Shown here one piece after another: positions 56,722 to 63,796 of a stretch of DNA of 64,000 nucleotides. The number at the start of each line of letters is the position of its first letter. Position 1 is the stretch's first letter. Source of the stretch: Promethearchaeia archaeon. Lineage in GTDB: Archaea; Asgardarchaeota; Lokiarchaeia; Sigyniarchaeales; SOKP01. The position numbers and the translations under genes were made by a program. The stretch covers positions 56,728 through 120,727 of the forward strand of contig JAHQWG010000039.1 in NCBI GenBank assembly GCA_029856045.1. Direction: 5' to 3'. The notes under the pieces are model-generated. The model was not told the DNA's origin. It was given only the letters and a program-made list of their open reading frames with translations, and made no database searches.

Positions 56722-58758
56722 ATGAATCTTAAATCAAATAGTTTCCAGAAAAAGGCAGGAATATTCTATACTCCAGAGTACATTAGTGAATTCATTGTAA
56801 AAAACGCAATTTTTGAATATATATTAACATTCTTTGAAAAAAGATATCAGAATATTGATGAATTAATTTTATCAGACAATCTTGATGACTTAAAAAAATT
56901 AAATAACATTATTATACATTTGAAAATCTTAGACCCAGCATGCGGAGCTGGCATATTTTTATTAAAATCGGGACAAATATTATTTGAATTAACGAGTAAA
57001 ATTGCAAAAAGATTAAATCTTAGAGAACCGACCTCCAAGAATAAGGTTGAGATATTAGAAAATAATCTTTACGGTGTTGATATATTTGAAGAAATTGTTC
57101 AAGAATGCAAATCCCAAATGAAAAAATGGTTGATTTCAAACGATCAACTTAATTTTAATAATTATGGAAATAAAAATATAAATTTTAATATAAAGGTTGG
57201 AAATAGTTTAATTAGCAGTTTAAATGAAGAAATAAATGGGGAAGATGCATTTAGTAAAGATTTTTCAATAGATTGGAAGTTATTCCACTGGAGTAAAGAA
57301 TTTCCTGAAGTAATTAAGAGCGGAGGATTTGATATCATTTTGGAAAATCCGCCCTATATTTTTACAAGAGGAGAGAATTTTTCTCCTTTACAGAAAAAGT
57401 ACTTCAAAAATTATATTTCTAAGTTAGGGTTAATTCAATCAAAAAAAGGAAGGCAAATTCAATCCAATAAATTAAATACGTATTCTCTATTTATCTTAAG
57501 GTCTTTAGAATTATTAAAAGAGGGTGGAAAATTAGCGGCAATAATTCCAAATAATTTTTTACGCAATACTAATCTCGATATTTACAGAGATTACATACTT
57601 AGTAATTATTCAATCAATCGAATTGTTGATTTATCTAATAGTGTTTTTCGAAATGTAGTTGCATCTATTGCCTGCTTATTTATTGAAAACAAAAAGCCAG
57701 ATGAGGAATTCAAGACGCAAATTATATCAAATATTGAAAATCTTAATGAAAACATTTATACAGAAAATAAGAGAACACAATCCAGTTTTCTGAAAAATAA
57801 GAGCTATGTAATTAATATTTATCTTGATGACACAGCACATAAAATTTGTGAAGAAATTATAAATAATTCAATAAGGTTAGGAGAAATTACTGAGTATATT
57901 ATTGAAGGAATTATCTGCTCTAAAAAGAGAAATGTCTTTGAAACTCGACTGATGTCCATAGATATGCCTTTTTTAGAGGGAAAAAATATTGATCGGTATA
58001 TTACTAAATGGTCTGGAAAGTTTATTAGATATAAAAGAGAAAATTTGCATAGGGCAAGACCTAATGAAGTATTTACTAGCAATAAATTGATATTACAAAG
58101 AATTAGTGGAGGACCTAAACCATTAAAAGTGAATTATGACCCTGGGATTTTTTATACATTTTCATCGATAAATAATATAATCATTAGTGACGAATACCGA
58201 AAGAAATTTCCTTTAAAACTTGTTTTAGTAATTTTAAACTCCAATCTAATGAACTGGTATTATGCAATAAATTTCTCAAATAGGTCAGAACTTACAGTAA
58301 ATATATCAAAAACTTTTTTGGAAGAAATACCTATTGTTAGACCTAAAAATAAATCCCTTTTTGAAAATATCGCAGATTATTTGATGTTTCTATTTCAGTA
58401 TTATAATATTGAAAATGAAAATTTAATTTTCAACGATGCGATGATCCAATTTTTTTATGAATTAAGTAATGGAATAGTTTATGAACTATATATGAATGAA
58501 AAAACTCATTCAAATTTATTAATTAATTTAGAAAATAAGTTAATGCCAATAGAATTTGATGATTGGATTTATGGAAAATTTAGTAATCTCATTTTTAAAG
58601 AAGAGCTATTTCATTTTAAAAAAATTGAAAAGATTAATCTTGAAAAAATAGAGAAGGTTTATGAGATTTTAATTAAAGATAACACGATTCGGACTAATTT
58701 AACTGAAATATTTGAAAATAAGTGGATAAAGTTTATTGAGAGAGGGGTTAAAAGGTGA
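56722..58758 (+). CDS. N6-adenine DNA methyltransferase (TaqI/Eco57I-like class)
   Basis: FYTPEYISEFIVKNA; ILDPACGAGIFLLKS; IILENPPYI; GGKLAAIIPNNFLR. Confidence 0.92.
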   Translation: MNLKSNSFQKKAGIFYTPEYISEFIVKNAIFEYILTFFEKRYQNIDELILSDNLDDLKKLNNIIIHLKILDPACGAGIFLLKSGQILFELTSKIAKRLNLREPTSKNKVEILENNLYGVDIFEEIVQECKSQMKKWLISNDQLNFNNYGNKNINFNIKVGNSLISSLNEEINGEDAFSKDFSIDWKLFHWSKEFPEVIKSGGFDIILENPPYIFTRGENFSPLQKKYFKNYISKLGLIQSKKGRQIQSNKLNTYSLFILRSLELLKEGGKLAAIIPNNFLRNTNLDIYRDYILSNYSINRIVDLSNSVFRNVVASIACLFIENKKPDEEFKTQIISNIENLNENIYTENKRTQSSFLKNKSYVINIYLDDTAHKICEEIINNSIRLGEITEYIIEGIICSKKRNVFETRLMSIDMPFLEGKNIDRYITKWSGKFIRYKRENLHRARPNEVFTSNKLILQRISGGPKPLKVNYDPGIFYTFSSINNIIISDEYRKKFPLKLVLVILNSNLMNWYYAINFSNRSELTVNISKTFLEEIPIVRPKNKSLFENIADYLMFLFQYYNIENENLIFNDAMIQFFYELSNGIVYELYMNEKTHSNLLINLENKLMPIEFDDWIYGKFSNLIFKEELFHFKKIEKINLEKIEKVYEILIKDNTIRTNLTEIFENKWIKFIERGVKR

Positions 58759-59014: not shown

Positions 59015-60331
59015 TTGCGGGGAAATATCATAAAAAATTTAAACATAAATCAGAATAATCAACTGAAATATTTAATAATAAAAAACCCATTAGATTTACA
59101 AATTGAAAGAAAAGATATATTTTATCGCGAATCTTATTCCGAAATTATTGATTATATAAAATTTTTATTGAGTTCTGAGGTTGTATCATCAGAAATTAAA
59201 ATAAAGAAGATTAAAGGTTCAATTTTGATTGATGCTCCTTATGGTTCAGATATACTACGTTATATTAAATTGATTGCAAAGACATTCACTTTAAAATTTG
59301 TAAAATTAAATTTTTCCGAGATTAGAAAATCTCCTGATGATTTTATATTAAATTTTCCAAATATTTTTGATAATTTGGCTAAAAATTATAGGGATGCTAA
59401 AAAATTAGAGCAAGAACTTAAAGAAAAAGATAAAACCATTGAAAGAGCTTTAAAATTTATATTTGTTGTTGAAAATCAACAAGAATTTTTTCAGAGAAAC
59501 TATAAAGATATTCATTTTGATATATTCGAACATTTATATTATGAATTAAAAAATAAGATGGAAAATTTCAATTTTAACGAGAATGGGATTATTTTCCTAG
59601 GAATTAATCATCTGGAGAATTCTTTATGCCGAGCAAGTTTTAAATTATTTGATTTTTATTTAAAAATTCCAACTATCGCTGAAAATGAAAGAAGGATTAT
59701 CTTAGAAAAAATTAGTGAAGAGATATCTACAAATCATACTTTTGATGTGGGCAGAATTACTTCCTTAACTGATGGTTGGGAAGTAAAAGATATAAGGGAA
59801 TTGATAAGCACTGCATATTTACGGAATGTGGCAAAATTAAATGATTCTATTAATGATATTACAGAAACAATAGAAAAAATTATTGACAAAGGGGAATTTA
59901 TTCCTTCATATTTAATTTCATTAAATTCTATTCAAAATAAATTAGGGGAATTTCAAACTCCTATAAATTCCTCAATAGTTCAATCAATAAATCAAAATAA
60001 GAAATTTAAAATAGAACTTTCAAAAGTAGATCACAAAAAAATTCCAGAACTTGAATCCAAATTAAGAGCTGAAATAGAAAAGATTAAATCACAAAGAATT
60101 TCAAATTTTATGGTACAACAATTATATGAGGATGCAGCCTCAGAAAATTATACAGAGCTCTTAGTCATATTAGATAAGATGAAAAAGAAAGAACCCCTTG
60201 AAGATTACGATCGAAAATTATTAGCAGAATATTCTTTTATTTTGAATGACCCTCCAAATATCGCTTTAATACTGTTAGAAAAGGCAAAAAAAAGAATTGA
60301 TAATATTAAAAAAGCATTTAGGAAGGAATAG
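59015..60331 (+). CDS. Degenerate AAA-type ATPase-like protein (P-loop and Walker B lost)
   Basis: GSILIDAPYGSDILRYIKLIAKTFTLKFVKLN at Walker A position, GIIFLGINHL at Walker B position, ITSLTDGWEVKDIRELISTAY typical of the AAA lid; TTG start uncertain. Confidence 0.65.
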   Translation: MRGNIIKNLNINQNNQLKYLIIKNPLDLQIERKDIFYRESYSEIIDYIKFLLSSEVVSSEIKIKKIKGSILIDAPYGSDILRYIKLIAKTFTLKFVKLNFSEIRKSPDDFILNFPNIFDNLAKNYRDAKKLEQELKEKDKTIERALKFIFVVENQQEFFQRNYKDIHFDIFEHLYYELKNKMENFNFNENGIIFLGINHLENSLCRASFKLFDFYLKIPTIAENERRIILEKISEEISTNHTFDVGRITSLTDGWEVKDIRELISTAYLRNVAKLNDSINDITETIEKIIDKGEFIPSYLISLNSIQNKLGEFQTPINSSIVQSINQNKKFKIELSKVDHKKIPELESKLRAEIEKIKSQRISNFMVQQLYEDAASENYTELLVILDKMKKKEPLEDYDRKLLAEYSFILNDPPNIALILLEKAKKRIDNIKKAFRKE

Positions 60332-60364: not shown

Positions 60365-63300
60365 ATGAAATCATCGGATAACCTAGACCAAGATGTCTAT
60401 ATTAAGGAAATCATATTAGAGAACTTTTTAGCCTTTCAGAGAGATAAAGCAGAATTTTCTAAAGGATTGGTACTGATTGTTGGTCCTAATTGGTCCGGTA
60501 AATCTACAATTTACCAAGGGATAAAGTTTGCCTTGGGTAGCAATGAACGGGATGAGAGATATTCAAAATGGTCTGATTTTATAAGATCCGGACAAAATCA
60601 TGCTCTAATCGAACTATATATTCAGACACCTGAGAATTTAATTGGAATACGAAGGACAGTTCTTAGAGGAAAAGCTCCGTTTTTTGAAATAAAGCAAAAA
60701 AATGATAAAGAATTCAAAAAAATTAATTCCCTTGAAATAAGAGATCTCGTGAAATCATTAAATTATAATCCGGATAATCAATTTTCTTTTGTCAGTCAAG
60801 GCAAAATCGATGCGTTTAAAGATATGAAACCTGAGGAATTATGTATTTTCTTAGAGGAAGGAGTGGGTTTAAAAGGATTAAGGCAGGAAATTTTAAATCA
60901 AAAAACTCAAGTAGCCAAATTACAAGAAAAATTAAAAGCATTAAAAACAGAGCAAAATAGTTGGAATTTTGAATTAAAATTATTGGAGCCTAAGTTAAAA
61001 AGATTAGAAGATAAGCGAAATTTGCTTAAAGACAGAGAAAACCTTACAGATGAGTTATTATGGGCTAATCGAGATAAAATAGAGAAAGAGATTTATATTC
61101 TCGAAGAAAATATTAAGAAAATTACTATTATAATTAATGATTTACAAAAGCAATTAGAAGATTTTATATCACAAACAAATGAAATCATTAAAAAAATTGA
61201 TAAAATTAATAAAAATTCAGAAAAACTGTCTGAGAATATTGGTAAAATAAGGGGTAGAATTTCAGAACTAGAGAAGATAATTCAACAGTGGAAGATTGAG
61301 CAACAAAAAATAAAGGTACGTTTAGAAGAATTAGAACAAAAAAAAAATAAATTAAAAAGTAAATTAAACAACAATAAAGCTAAAGGAAATAAAATCTCAG
61401 AAGAATTAAAAATCATTCGCAATAATATTAAAATACTAGATTCTGCAATCTCTGATATTTTAAAAGAACAAAATGAATTAGTAGAAAAGGTATCTATTCA
61501 CAAAGATTTTCTTGAGAAATTTAAGGGGACAAAAGGGGAATTAAGTAAAAAACAAGATGAACTTATTCAGAATACCCAAAAAATAACAGAAATTAATGAT
61601 GAAATCGATAGTATTTTCGCCGAATTAAGAGATGTGAAACATCAACTTGAGCAAAATAAATGGTTTCTTAAAGATAAGGATGAGAATTTACAAGAAAAGC
61701 TGATTAATCAACGTAATAATTTGGATAATAAAATTCATGATTTGAGAGAACAACTAAGTGAAATAAGAAAGGATCATGATAAAAAAGTTAATGCTTATAA
61801 AAGATTAAATTATTCCATTAGAGAAAAAAGATTATTCTTACCTTCAAATATCATATCTTTAAAAGAAGAAATTTATAATAGAAATCTAAACGCAAAAGGC
61901 CCAATAATTGAATTATTACAATATAATGATAAATTGGGGTTTGCAATTGAATCAGTTTTAGGAAAGAAAGTATTATTTAGTTTTATTGCAGGCGATTGGA
62001 ATACTTTTATTCTACTAAAAAAATTAAAAGATAGCCATAATGTTTATTGCAATATATATATACCAAAGGAAGTAAGTATTCGTCAATTTTCAAAATATGA
62101 AAAAATTGATGGAGTATTGGGCTATCTCGCAGAATTAATTAAAATTAAAGGCAATGATGAAGATGTAAGGAAATTAATTTTTTCTAAAGTGAAAAATTGT
62201 CTTGTAGTAGAAGATTTTACTACAGGAACACTTATGCATAAAAACTACAAATTTAGAGGTAAATGCGTTACATTAAAAGGCGAACAAATCATATCATATG
62301 ATTATGTTGTTGAAACCCCATATTTAAAGAAATTAGAAGGATTATTAAGTCCAACTAAACAAATGGATCAATTGTATCTATTAGAAATGGAAATAAGTAA
62401 ATCGAATGATGAAAGAAAGGATTTAGAATCCTTAAAAACTAAAATAGATCAAAAATATCGAGAAATTTCTAAGAAAATTGATGCCTTACCTACTCTTGAA
62501 TTATTATTTCGGCAAGAACAAAAACTTTTAAGCAAAAAAGATAATCTCCTTGAAATAAGAAAAAAAATGAACGAATTGAATGATAATATTGAAATACAAA
62601 TCGATAATTTGTTAAAAGAAGTAGAAATTTTAAAGAGAGAACAAAAACCAGAGTTTTTTGAATGGCAGAAGCGTTTAGAAAAGATTCCAGAAGAATTTGA
62701 TTTAAAAAACAGTGAAAAGAAGCATTGGTCAGAAATTAATGATGAAAAACAGAAATCATTATCTGAAATTCAAGAAATTATAAATAAAGAAACCGCTGAA
62801 TTTACAAAAATAAACGTTAATTATAAAACAACTAAAAAAGAGTTTCAAGGTAGAGATCAGAAGGCATTTGAAGTATTTCAAGAACTAACTGGACTTGAAA
62901 ATCAAATTAAGGATTTAAAAATTCAGAAAGAAAAATATGAGTTAGATAAAAAGACTCTAAAGGAAGAAGAAAATAAAATTAGACAAGAAAATCTTGAATT
63001 TAATTTAAATTATGAAAGAAAACAAGACCAATTGAGTTCACTACAAAATGATCTCCAATCTAAAATCTTAGATCTAGAAAAAGTTAATAAAGAGATTGGT
63101 CCAAAAATATTGAGTAAAGAAATAGAAATACGTCCAATTGAAGAAATTGAAAATGATCTTCTCGAATTGAATAAAAGATTAATGAAATACGCAGATATTG
63201 ACGATACTCTAGATTTAGAAAAAGAGAGAATTATTCAAACACTCAAAAAAATTGCTCAAAATCAAGCACAAATTCAGAGAGACCTTATTGAAGCAGAAGA

Positions 63301-63796
63301 AACCGAAAAAAATTTAGAAAATACATATTATAAAAAGTTTAATAAAATTATCAAAAAACTAGAAGATTTAATTAATAAAAAATTTGAAATCTCTGAAATT
63401 AAAGCTCAGTGTTCGATAGATTTATCGGGAAAATTTGAAAATTTAGGTATTAAAATTAAAGCAGCTTTATTAAAAGAACAGCTACGAGATATAACCGCAT
63501 TAAGTGGAGGGCAACGCTCTATTATTGCAATTTGTTTAATACTATCTTTACAAGAATTTAAATCAAGTAGGATAATTGTATTAGACGAAGCAGAATTATA
63601 CTTGGATGAAAATAACGCTGAAATCGCTTATAAATTAATAAAGAGCGCAATTCAGATGAATAAAATACAAATAATAATATTTGTGCCAAAAGCATCTAAA
63701 TATATTTTTTCAATGGCAGACAAACTTATTGGAGTTGCACGAAATGGAGCAATAGGTCCATCAACGATACTCCAACCTAAGATAAAAAGAACTTAA
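60365..63796 (+). CDS. SMC-family ATPase (SMC5/6-like features)
   Basis: Walker A VGPNWSGKST; QFSFVSQGKIDAF; long coiled coils; hinge-like centre KGPIIELLQYNDKLGFAIESVLG; C-terminal LSGGQRSIIAICLILSLQ and IIVLDEAELYLDENN. Confidence 0.9.
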   Translation: MKSSDNLDQDVYIKEIILENFLAFQRDKAEFSKGLVLIVGPNWSGKSTIYQGIKFALGSNERDERYSKWSDFIRSGQNHALIELYIQTPENLIGIRRTVLRGKAPFFEIKQKNDKEFKKINSLEIRDLVKSLNYNPDNQFSFVSQGKIDAFKDMKPEELCIFLEEGVGLKGLRQEILNQKTQVAKLQEKLKALKTEQNSWNFELKLLEPKLKRLEDKRNLLKDRENLTDELLWANRDKIEKEIYILEENIKKITIIINDLQKQLEDFISQTNEIIKKIDKINKNSEKLSENIGKIRGRISELEKIIQQWKIEQQKIKVRLEELEQKKNKLKSKLNNNKAKGNKISEELKIIRNNIKILDSAISDILKEQNELVEKVSIHKDFLEKFKGTKGELSKKQDELIQNTQKITEINDEIDSIFAELRDVKHQLEQNKWFLKDKDENLQEKLINQRNNLDNKIHDLREQLSEIRKDHDKKVNAYKRLNYSIREKRLFLPSNIISLKEEIYNRNLNAKGPIIELLQYNDKLGFAIESVLGKKVLFSFIAGDWNTFILLKKLKDSHNVYCNIYIPKEVSIRQFSKYEKIDGVLGYLAELIKIKGNDEDVRKLIFSKVKNCLVVEDFTTGTLMHKNYKFRGKCVTLKGEQIISYDYVVETPYLKKLEGLLSPTKQMDQLYLLEMEISKSNDERKDLESLKTKIDQKYREISKKIDALPTLELLFRQEQKLLSKKDNLLEIRKKMNELNDNIEIQIDNLLKEVEILKREQKPEFFEWQKRLEKIPEEFDLKNSEKKHWSEINDEKQKSLSEIQEIINKETAEFTKINVNYKTTKKEFQGRDQKAFEVFQELTGLENQIKDLKIQKEKYELDKKTLKEEENKIRQENLEFNLNYERKQDQLSSLQNDLQSKILDLEKVNKEIGPKILSKEIEIRPIEEIENDLLELNKRLMKYADIDDTLDLEKERIIQTLKKIAQNQAQIQRDLIEAEETEKNLENTYYKKFNKIIKKLEDLINKKFEISEIKAQCSIDLSGKFENLGIKIKAALLKEQLRDITALSGGQRSIIAICLILSLQEFKSSRIIVLDEAELYLDENNAEIAYKLIKSAIQMNKIQIIIFVPKASKYIFSMADKLIGVARNGAIGPSTILQPKIKRT

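Follow-up and report, generated by a model that had tools for sequence, protein, structure and literature searches.

A conserved four-gene operon of Asgard archaea encoding an SMC5/6-like SMC protein with predicted kleisin, kite and AAA+-derived partners

Among the eukaryotic SMC complexes, Smc5/6 has the least clear origin, and it is the only one that has retained kites (PMC5228436). An archaeal subfamily of SMC5/6-related SMC proteins is already known from the literature. In published trees with a larger number of taxa, this archaeal clade groups with SMC5/6 at a support of 100%/0.99, although membership of the protein studied here is unconfirmed (PMC9389158). The published descriptions consulted treat the SMC protein alone and mention no kleisin, kite or AAA-like partners. 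Here, we analyse an SMC gene and its neighbours in a stretch of 64,000 nucleotides from a Promethearchaeia archaeon (positions 56,728 to 120,727 of the forward strand of contig JAHQWG010000039.1, assembly GCA_029856045.1; hereafter the window). The product of this gene is probably the motor of a housekeeping SMC-kleisin-kite complex, the third such complex of its host, and within the SMC family it probably belongs with SMC5/6. In the literature searched, we found no description of a four-gene operon with a kleisin, a kite and an AAA-derived subunit; a preprint by van Hooff et al. may overlap with it.

The SMC protein and its place in the SMC family

A preliminary description of the sequence had proposed an SMC protein with SMC5/6-like features and a substituted Walker A motif, distinct from Rad50 and from canonical SMC. 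The open reading frame (ORF) is as described, and GPNWSGKS, DNQFSFVSQGKIDAFKDMKPEELCIFLEEGVGLKG, FIRSGQNHALIELYI and LDEAELYLDENN are all present. Its assignment to the SMC proteins lies far above chance. The window protein matched the Pfam families SMC_N (3.9e-13) and AAA_23 (1.1e-12), and almost all genomes of this family carry a full-length orthologue. The SMC hinge (PF06470) was matched at 0.0023 in the window protein itself, and was detected in 27 of the 27 orthologues, with a best value of 5.2e-14. A CxxC zinc hook was found neither in the window protein nor in any of these orthologues.

Several residues of the ATPase heads were strongly conserved. S1047, G1049, D1074 and E1075 are invariant in the 27-row alignment, the glutamine of the Q-loop is conserved among the orthologues, and the Walker A lysine is conserved at a level of at least 90%. 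Because these catalytic residues have been kept even among orthologues whose overall identity is as low as 21-24%, ATPase activity is to be expected of the SMC heads. The ratio of nonsynonymous to synonymous substitution rates (dN/dS) of the SMC gene, calculated against a relative from the same genus, was 0.18. The substitution of the usual glycine of the P-loop by tryptophan is real. Its conservation is confined to one lineage: all sequences checked from the same family carry the tryptophan (16/16), whereas other families have glycine. The tryptophan is a fixed change of a single lineage, rather than an error or a trait of the wider family. In two SMC genes from the same genus (L084:8951 and L085:7392), the reading frame extends through the first 90 residues although this part has no ATG, GTG or TTG start, so that the open frame of 1152 aa compares with 1052 aa from the first start. 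This anomaly may reflect either an unusual start codon or an assembly error.

Phylogenetic trees were calculated from the heads (N plus C) of the window protein and its relatives, human and yeast SMC5/6, representatives of SMC1-4, Pyrococcus SMC, Asgard canonical-type SMCs and Asgard Rad50. The eukaryotic sequences were limited to segments confirmed in PDB output, and the head tree was rooted on Rad50. The window family formed one clade (98/99) outside the clade of canonical SMC and SMC1-4 (100/97-98; 100/98 in the Rad50-rooted tree), while Rad50 formed a separate clade (100/99-100). Hence, neither canonical archaeal SMC nor Rad50 took in the window protein. Furthermore, the window family joined SMC5 and SMC6 with a support of 93/79, or 96/81 without the long rows, and this grouping was the best tree in all three samplings.

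Profile scores separated the window protein from the other candidates as well. Against canonical prokaryotic SMC it reached 185.1 bits, compared with a cut-off of 729.4 for SMC_prok_A, and 165.9 bits compared with 567.35 (TIGR02168/TIGR02169); a canonical-type SMC of the same genome, SMC-B, scored 835 in this test. In the trees it lay outside the canonical/SMC1-4 clade throughout, a sister position to that whole clade being compatible with the approximately unbiased (AU) tests. Rad50 was rejected at 72 bits against a cut-off of 700, in line with the hinge, the lack of CxxC and the separate clade. ASRP (ClsN/Sph) was rejected at 73.2 bits against a cut-off of 300, again with no CxxC, whereas most ASRP members have a zinc hook.

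Several results weigh against the affinity with SMC5/6. Support for the grouping was 51/82 once more short-armed forms had been added. The AU tests rejected neither a position of SMC5/6 outside (p = 0.23) nor a position of the window family outside (p = 0.44), and whole-length profile scores for SMC2, SMC3 and SMC4 exceeded those for SMC5 and SMC6. Counting the residues that the heads of the window family, of SMC5/6 and of canonical SMC have in common did not help to decide (4 versus 5 versus 2 columns). Because the alternatives in the AU tests stand, support varies and the profile scores favour SMC2/SMC4, we consider the window SMC to be SMC5/6-like with moderate confidence only, as the favoured placement, short of proven. 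The SMC5/6 likeness put forward in the preliminary description is thereby upheld as the best tree in every sampling, but not as a settled assignment.

A competing explanation, which we regard as plausible although clearly less probable, is that the window SMC represents an independent archaeal lineage or an early canonical branch, and that its grouping with SMC5/6 results from long-branch attraction among rapidly evolving sequences. The complex would then still function as an SMC-kleisin-kite ring, but would be uninformative on the origin of Smc5/6. The AU tests and the profile scores are both in agreement with this explanation. Moreover, the branches of SMC5/6, sampled from human and yeast only, are very long, and in pairwise comparison the window family is more similar to canonical SMC (0.82) than to SMC5/6 (0.62). 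The same comparison also yields an argument in the opposite direction, however, since SMC5/6 is nearer to the window family than to canonical SMC (0.54). Relative to all other sequences, SMC5/6 has diverged further than the window family. The agreement of the three samplings on their best tree likewise speaks against long-branch attraction, as does the published SMC5/6-related archaeal clade (PMC9389158), with the reservation on membership given above.

The genome consists of 55 contigs, with a completeness score of 100%, and contains three SMC loci and one Rad50-Mre11 pair. SMC-A (1476 aa, contig C27) is located alongside ScpA-like and ScpB genes. SMC-B (1195 aa, contig C25) has a hinge and an adjoining ScpB gene, and Rad50 adjoins Mre11 on the same contig C25. 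The window SMC is the third, as the single member of its family in this genome. The preliminary description had suggested looking for a canonical SMC elsewhere in the genome, and these two further loci provide it.

Two other types of SMC protein were observed. The SMC linked to ScpA and ScpB (1476-1487 aa; L081:4927-9354, which is the C27 locus of the same genome, and L159:9141-13601) has canonical heads. In these two proteins a hinge was not detectable; between the heads there is only an extended coiled coil, the middle of which is different. Another Asgard SMC-like protein (L162:4749-7727 and L165:2326-5385) has 992-1019 aa and is very divergent. It is followed by three small genes (a class of 192-319 aa and a zinc-ribbon-like protein). 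L165 has a weak kite match.

The operon and its kleisin and kite genes

The flanks of about 50 homologous loci were read, and four family profiles were run over all their ORFs. Every locus with an intact contig showed the same strict order: an AAA-like gene, the SMC gene, a kleisin gene (K1) and a kite gene (K2). The genes are mostly separated by less than 35 bp or overlap; in the window, 34 bp lie between the AAA-like gene and the SMC gene (Table 1). This context, with the AAA-like gene upstream and the start of the kleisin gene downstream, had gone unnoticed in the preliminary description. No fifth conserved gene was found across the homologous loci, and the operon contains no nuclease or toprim gene.

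Table 1. Positions of the operon genes and their main features in the window; the kite gene is given on contig C6 of the same genome (G000)
Feature	Position	Strand	Basis
AAA+-fold gene, first of the operon, probable pseudo-ATPase	59015..60331	+	Adjacency; Pfam in distant members; AlphaFold/Foldseek
Walker A loop remnant DAPYGSDIL, Lys and Ser/Thr lost	59231..59257	+	Alignment of 29 homologues
C-terminal helical domain, residues 364-435	60104..60319	+	Alignment A3; model
SMC protein, hinge-type, probably of SMC5/6-like archaeal type, 1143 aa, ATG start	60365..63796	+	Pfam; trees; dN/dS
Walker A GPNWSGKS, residues 40-47, Trp43 for the usual Gly	60482..60505	+	Alignment A4
SMC hinge domain, residues ~511-640	61895..62284	+	PF06470 match at 511-621
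ABC signature LSGGQRS (1046-1052) and Walker B (1070-1075, DE 1074-1075)	63500..63589	+	Alignment
Start of the predicted kleisin gene, first 62 codons	63814..64000	+	Profile match of 2.4e-16 in the window
Predicted kite gene (K2)	G000:C6:605-1117		After the kleisin gene on C6

We assessed the distribution of the locus within Asgard; names of relatives come from a contig scan with one pattern, comprising 11 loci. By name, the locus is carried by Lokiarchaeota, Prometheoarchaeum and Thorarchaeota, and the order of the operon holds in the Lokiarchaeota and Thorarchaeota so named. Thorarchaeota have a reversed gene of ~446-450 aa between the kleisin and kite genes (L106:8553-9905, L108:6610-7950). 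The chromosomal neighbours of the locus are the same in many genera, and the kite profile was found in 110 of the 214 Asgard genomes that were at least 70% complete. Together with the near-universal presence in the family and the signs of purifying selection, the fixed neighbours and the kite count read as a vertically inherited, stable locus.

The kleisin gene runs off the window contig, and contig C6 completes a protein of 223 aa. The end of the window (64000) and G000:C6:1 share an overlap of exactly 127 bp. The contig end within the gene is thus a break in the assembly graph, not a biological end. A Pfam search of the protein gave chance matches only. Outside its own family, the K1 profile matched only genes located directly 3' of canonical-type SMC genes (E-values of 1.9e-4 to 2.5e-6), and the two of these that were tested are Pfam ScpA (3.6e-10 and 9.2e-13). 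Against PDB sequences, K1 gave weak matches to the C-terminal winged helix of ScpA (4i99, E = 0.023; 5xns, E = 0.15).

An AlphaFold model of a kleisin orthologue (7-row alignment; mean predicted local distance difference test score, pLDDT, of 74.6) begins with an N-terminal helical domain that includes a long helix. A disordered linker follows at ~107-150, and the C-terminus forms a winged helix. In structure comparison, this winged helix came closest to that of ScpA in complex with an SMC head (Z of 8.0; 1.9 Å over 60 residues), with Scc1-C next (Z of 7.2). Nse4 was also listed as a full-length match, albeit at a very high root-mean-square deviation. With sequence, position, architecture and fold in agreement, K1 is predicted to be a kleisin. 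For K2, Pfam ScpB was matched in three members (best 1.2e-6), and the profile picked up the kite gene of a different SMC operon (L157) at 8e-12. A search of PDB sequences with this profile returned generic winged-helix proteins only. By homology, K2 is assigned as a kite.

The case for a complex is lowered by three points. The match of the kleisin to PDB sequences is weak (E of 0.023), winged helices are common folds, such that a Z near 8 alone is not decisive, and mutual binding of the four proteins is a prediction.

Directly upstream of the operon, the window encodes a DNA methyltransferase of the Eco57I/TaqI type (56722-58758). A methyltransferase at this place is seen only in the genus of the window, and it is split into two ORFs in L084.

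The AAA+-fold first gene

The AAA-like protein of the window has no Pfam match, but distant members of its family match Pfam AAA (6.8e-11) and also the AAA lid. An AlphaFold model of the window protein matched Msp1, FtsH, p97 and Vps4 (best Foldseek E of 7e-8), and more than 1000 PDB chains fell under 1e-3. Its C-terminal helical domain is the best-conserved part of alignment A3, with a pLDDT of ~90 for the helices. In contrast to this fold, the P-loop has decayed. At the position of GK(S/T) the sequence reads G-x-D, mostly G-T-D in the family of the window and in the family containing Thorarchaeota, and other letters elsewhere. The Walker A lysine and the serine or threonine are absent from the window protein and from all covering sequences of the 29-row alignment.

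Both residues are present in the homologues of L066, L067, L167, L168 and L169, so an intact AAA+ ATPase still occurs in short-armed and some other Asgard lineages. The short-armed SMCs (831-841 aa; L066, L067, L167 and L168) have the same four-gene order with an intact AAA+ partner, as exemplified by GRPGTGKTTL in L067, with a Pfam AAA match of 6.7e-26; their Walker B reads as FIDNFD. Decayed and intact forms alike have the conserved helical motif at the C-terminus. The AAA-like gene evolves under purifying selection, with a dN/dS of 0.25 compared with 0.18 for the SMC gene. This partner thus resembles an AAA+ ATPase that became a pseudo-ATPase and has since been maintained by purifying selection. 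Its strict linkage and conservation suggest that it most likely acts as a structural or loading regulator.

We consider it improbable that the AAA-like protein is merely a passenger of the operon, with a separate function and no place in an SMC complex. Its faster evolution relative to the SMC would agree with a passenger. However, the gene lies immediately upstream of the SMC gene in every intact locus, in several families and even where the SMC arms are shortened. Its purifying selection and the C-terminal motif common to decayed and intact forms also argue for a subunit.

An SMC nearer to the canonical side is found in an operon of this layout in L169 (2890-8974; intact Walker A GLPGMGKTSL) and in L157, and G116 likewise combines the four-gene order and an intact AAA with such an SMC. 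Because a near-canonical SMC also sits in an AAA-SMC-kleisin-kite operon (L169, L157), the link with AAA may predate the window family or may have arisen twice. A tentative scenario, which we put forward as rather unlikely in its entirety, is that this class of operons existed in Asgard before eukaryotes. The AAA+ would once have been a working partner motor or loader and would have lost its ATPase function in Loki- and Thorarchaeia, where it would persist as a pseudo-ATPase. Eukaryotic Smc5/6 would descend from this stock as well, its SMC having been duplicated and its AAA subunit lost.

Proposed working and comparison with known systems

By homology to Smc-ScpAB and Smc5/6, the complex can be pictured as follows. 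The single SMC would dimerise through its hinge, and the 223-aa kleisin would link both SMC heads (neck and cap) through its N-terminal helical domain and its C-terminal winged helix. A kite with tandem winged helices would sit on the linker of the kleisin. Binding and hydrolysis of ATP by the intact SMC heads would power the entrapment of DNA or the extrusion of loops, in the service of chromosome maintenance, and the fourth subunit, with an AAA+ fold whose P-loop chemistry was lost in the lineage of the window, would act as a structural or loading regulator.

A housekeeping role in genome maintenance fits better than defence, because the locus is near-universal in the family with the same neighbours in many genera. 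An anti-plasmid or antiviral system resembling Wadjet, with the SMC-kleisin-kite set as sensor, an executor, and the AAA-like protein as effector or adaptor, is an improbable reading. In its favour, the SMC-kleisin-kite set plus a fourth gene is the JetABCD layout, eukaryotic Smc5/6 also restricts extrachromosomal DNA (PMC10586767) and a type II/IIG methylase lies upstream in the window. Against it, the operon has no nuclease or toprim gene, the methylase neighbour is limited to this genus, PADLOC yields only weak hits of partial length to JetC/LmuB, and near-universal vertical inheritance with fixed neighbours is unlike a mobile defence island.

With Wadjet (JetABCD) and MukBEF, the operon shares the SMC-kleisin-kite core. 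It differs in the hinge-type dimerisation domain of its SMC, for which matches to JetC models are weak and partial. The operon has no JetD-type nuclease, and none of its proteins that were scanned with PADLOC came up as a Jet partner.

Smc-ScpAB likewise encodes a single SMC, a kleisin and a kite together, and the kleisin and kite profiles match ScpA and ScpB. In contrast to Smc-ScpAB, the window SMC lies outside the canonical clade and far below the SMC_prok cut-off. Furthermore, the Asgard operon has four genes including the AAA-like gene, and the genome has two canonical-type SMC loci besides. The kite of the operon is at odds with the view of archaeal SMC complexes as generally kite-free (PMC7055376).

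The published archaeal SMC5/6-related SMCs branch with SMC5/6 and apart from the canonical SMCs of archaea, as does the window protein in its favoured placement. Eukaryotic Smc5/6 itself (Smc5, Smc6, the kleisin Nse4 and the kites Nse1 and Nse3) has in common with the Asgard operon a hinge SMC and a kleisin with an N-terminal helical and a C-terminal winged-helix domain. Both have kept a kite rather than HEAT (Hawk) subunits, which is also true of Smc-ScpAB and hence not diagnostic. Whereas eukaryotes have an SMC5-SMC6 heterodimer, the Asgard operon has one SMC gene, presumably giving a homodimer, and one kite gene. No RING subunit of the Nse1 type or SUMO ligase of the Nse2 type was seen in the operon, to which this search was confined. 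The conserved Asgard operon is a concrete, expressible SMC5/6-like relative, which makes the origin of Smc5/6 testable in vitro. It includes an AAA-like subunit, whereas the eukaryotic Smc5/6 complex is without one, and SMC proteins would gain a novel type of partner in an AAA+-derived subunit with a P-loop that is intact in some lineages and stripped in others.

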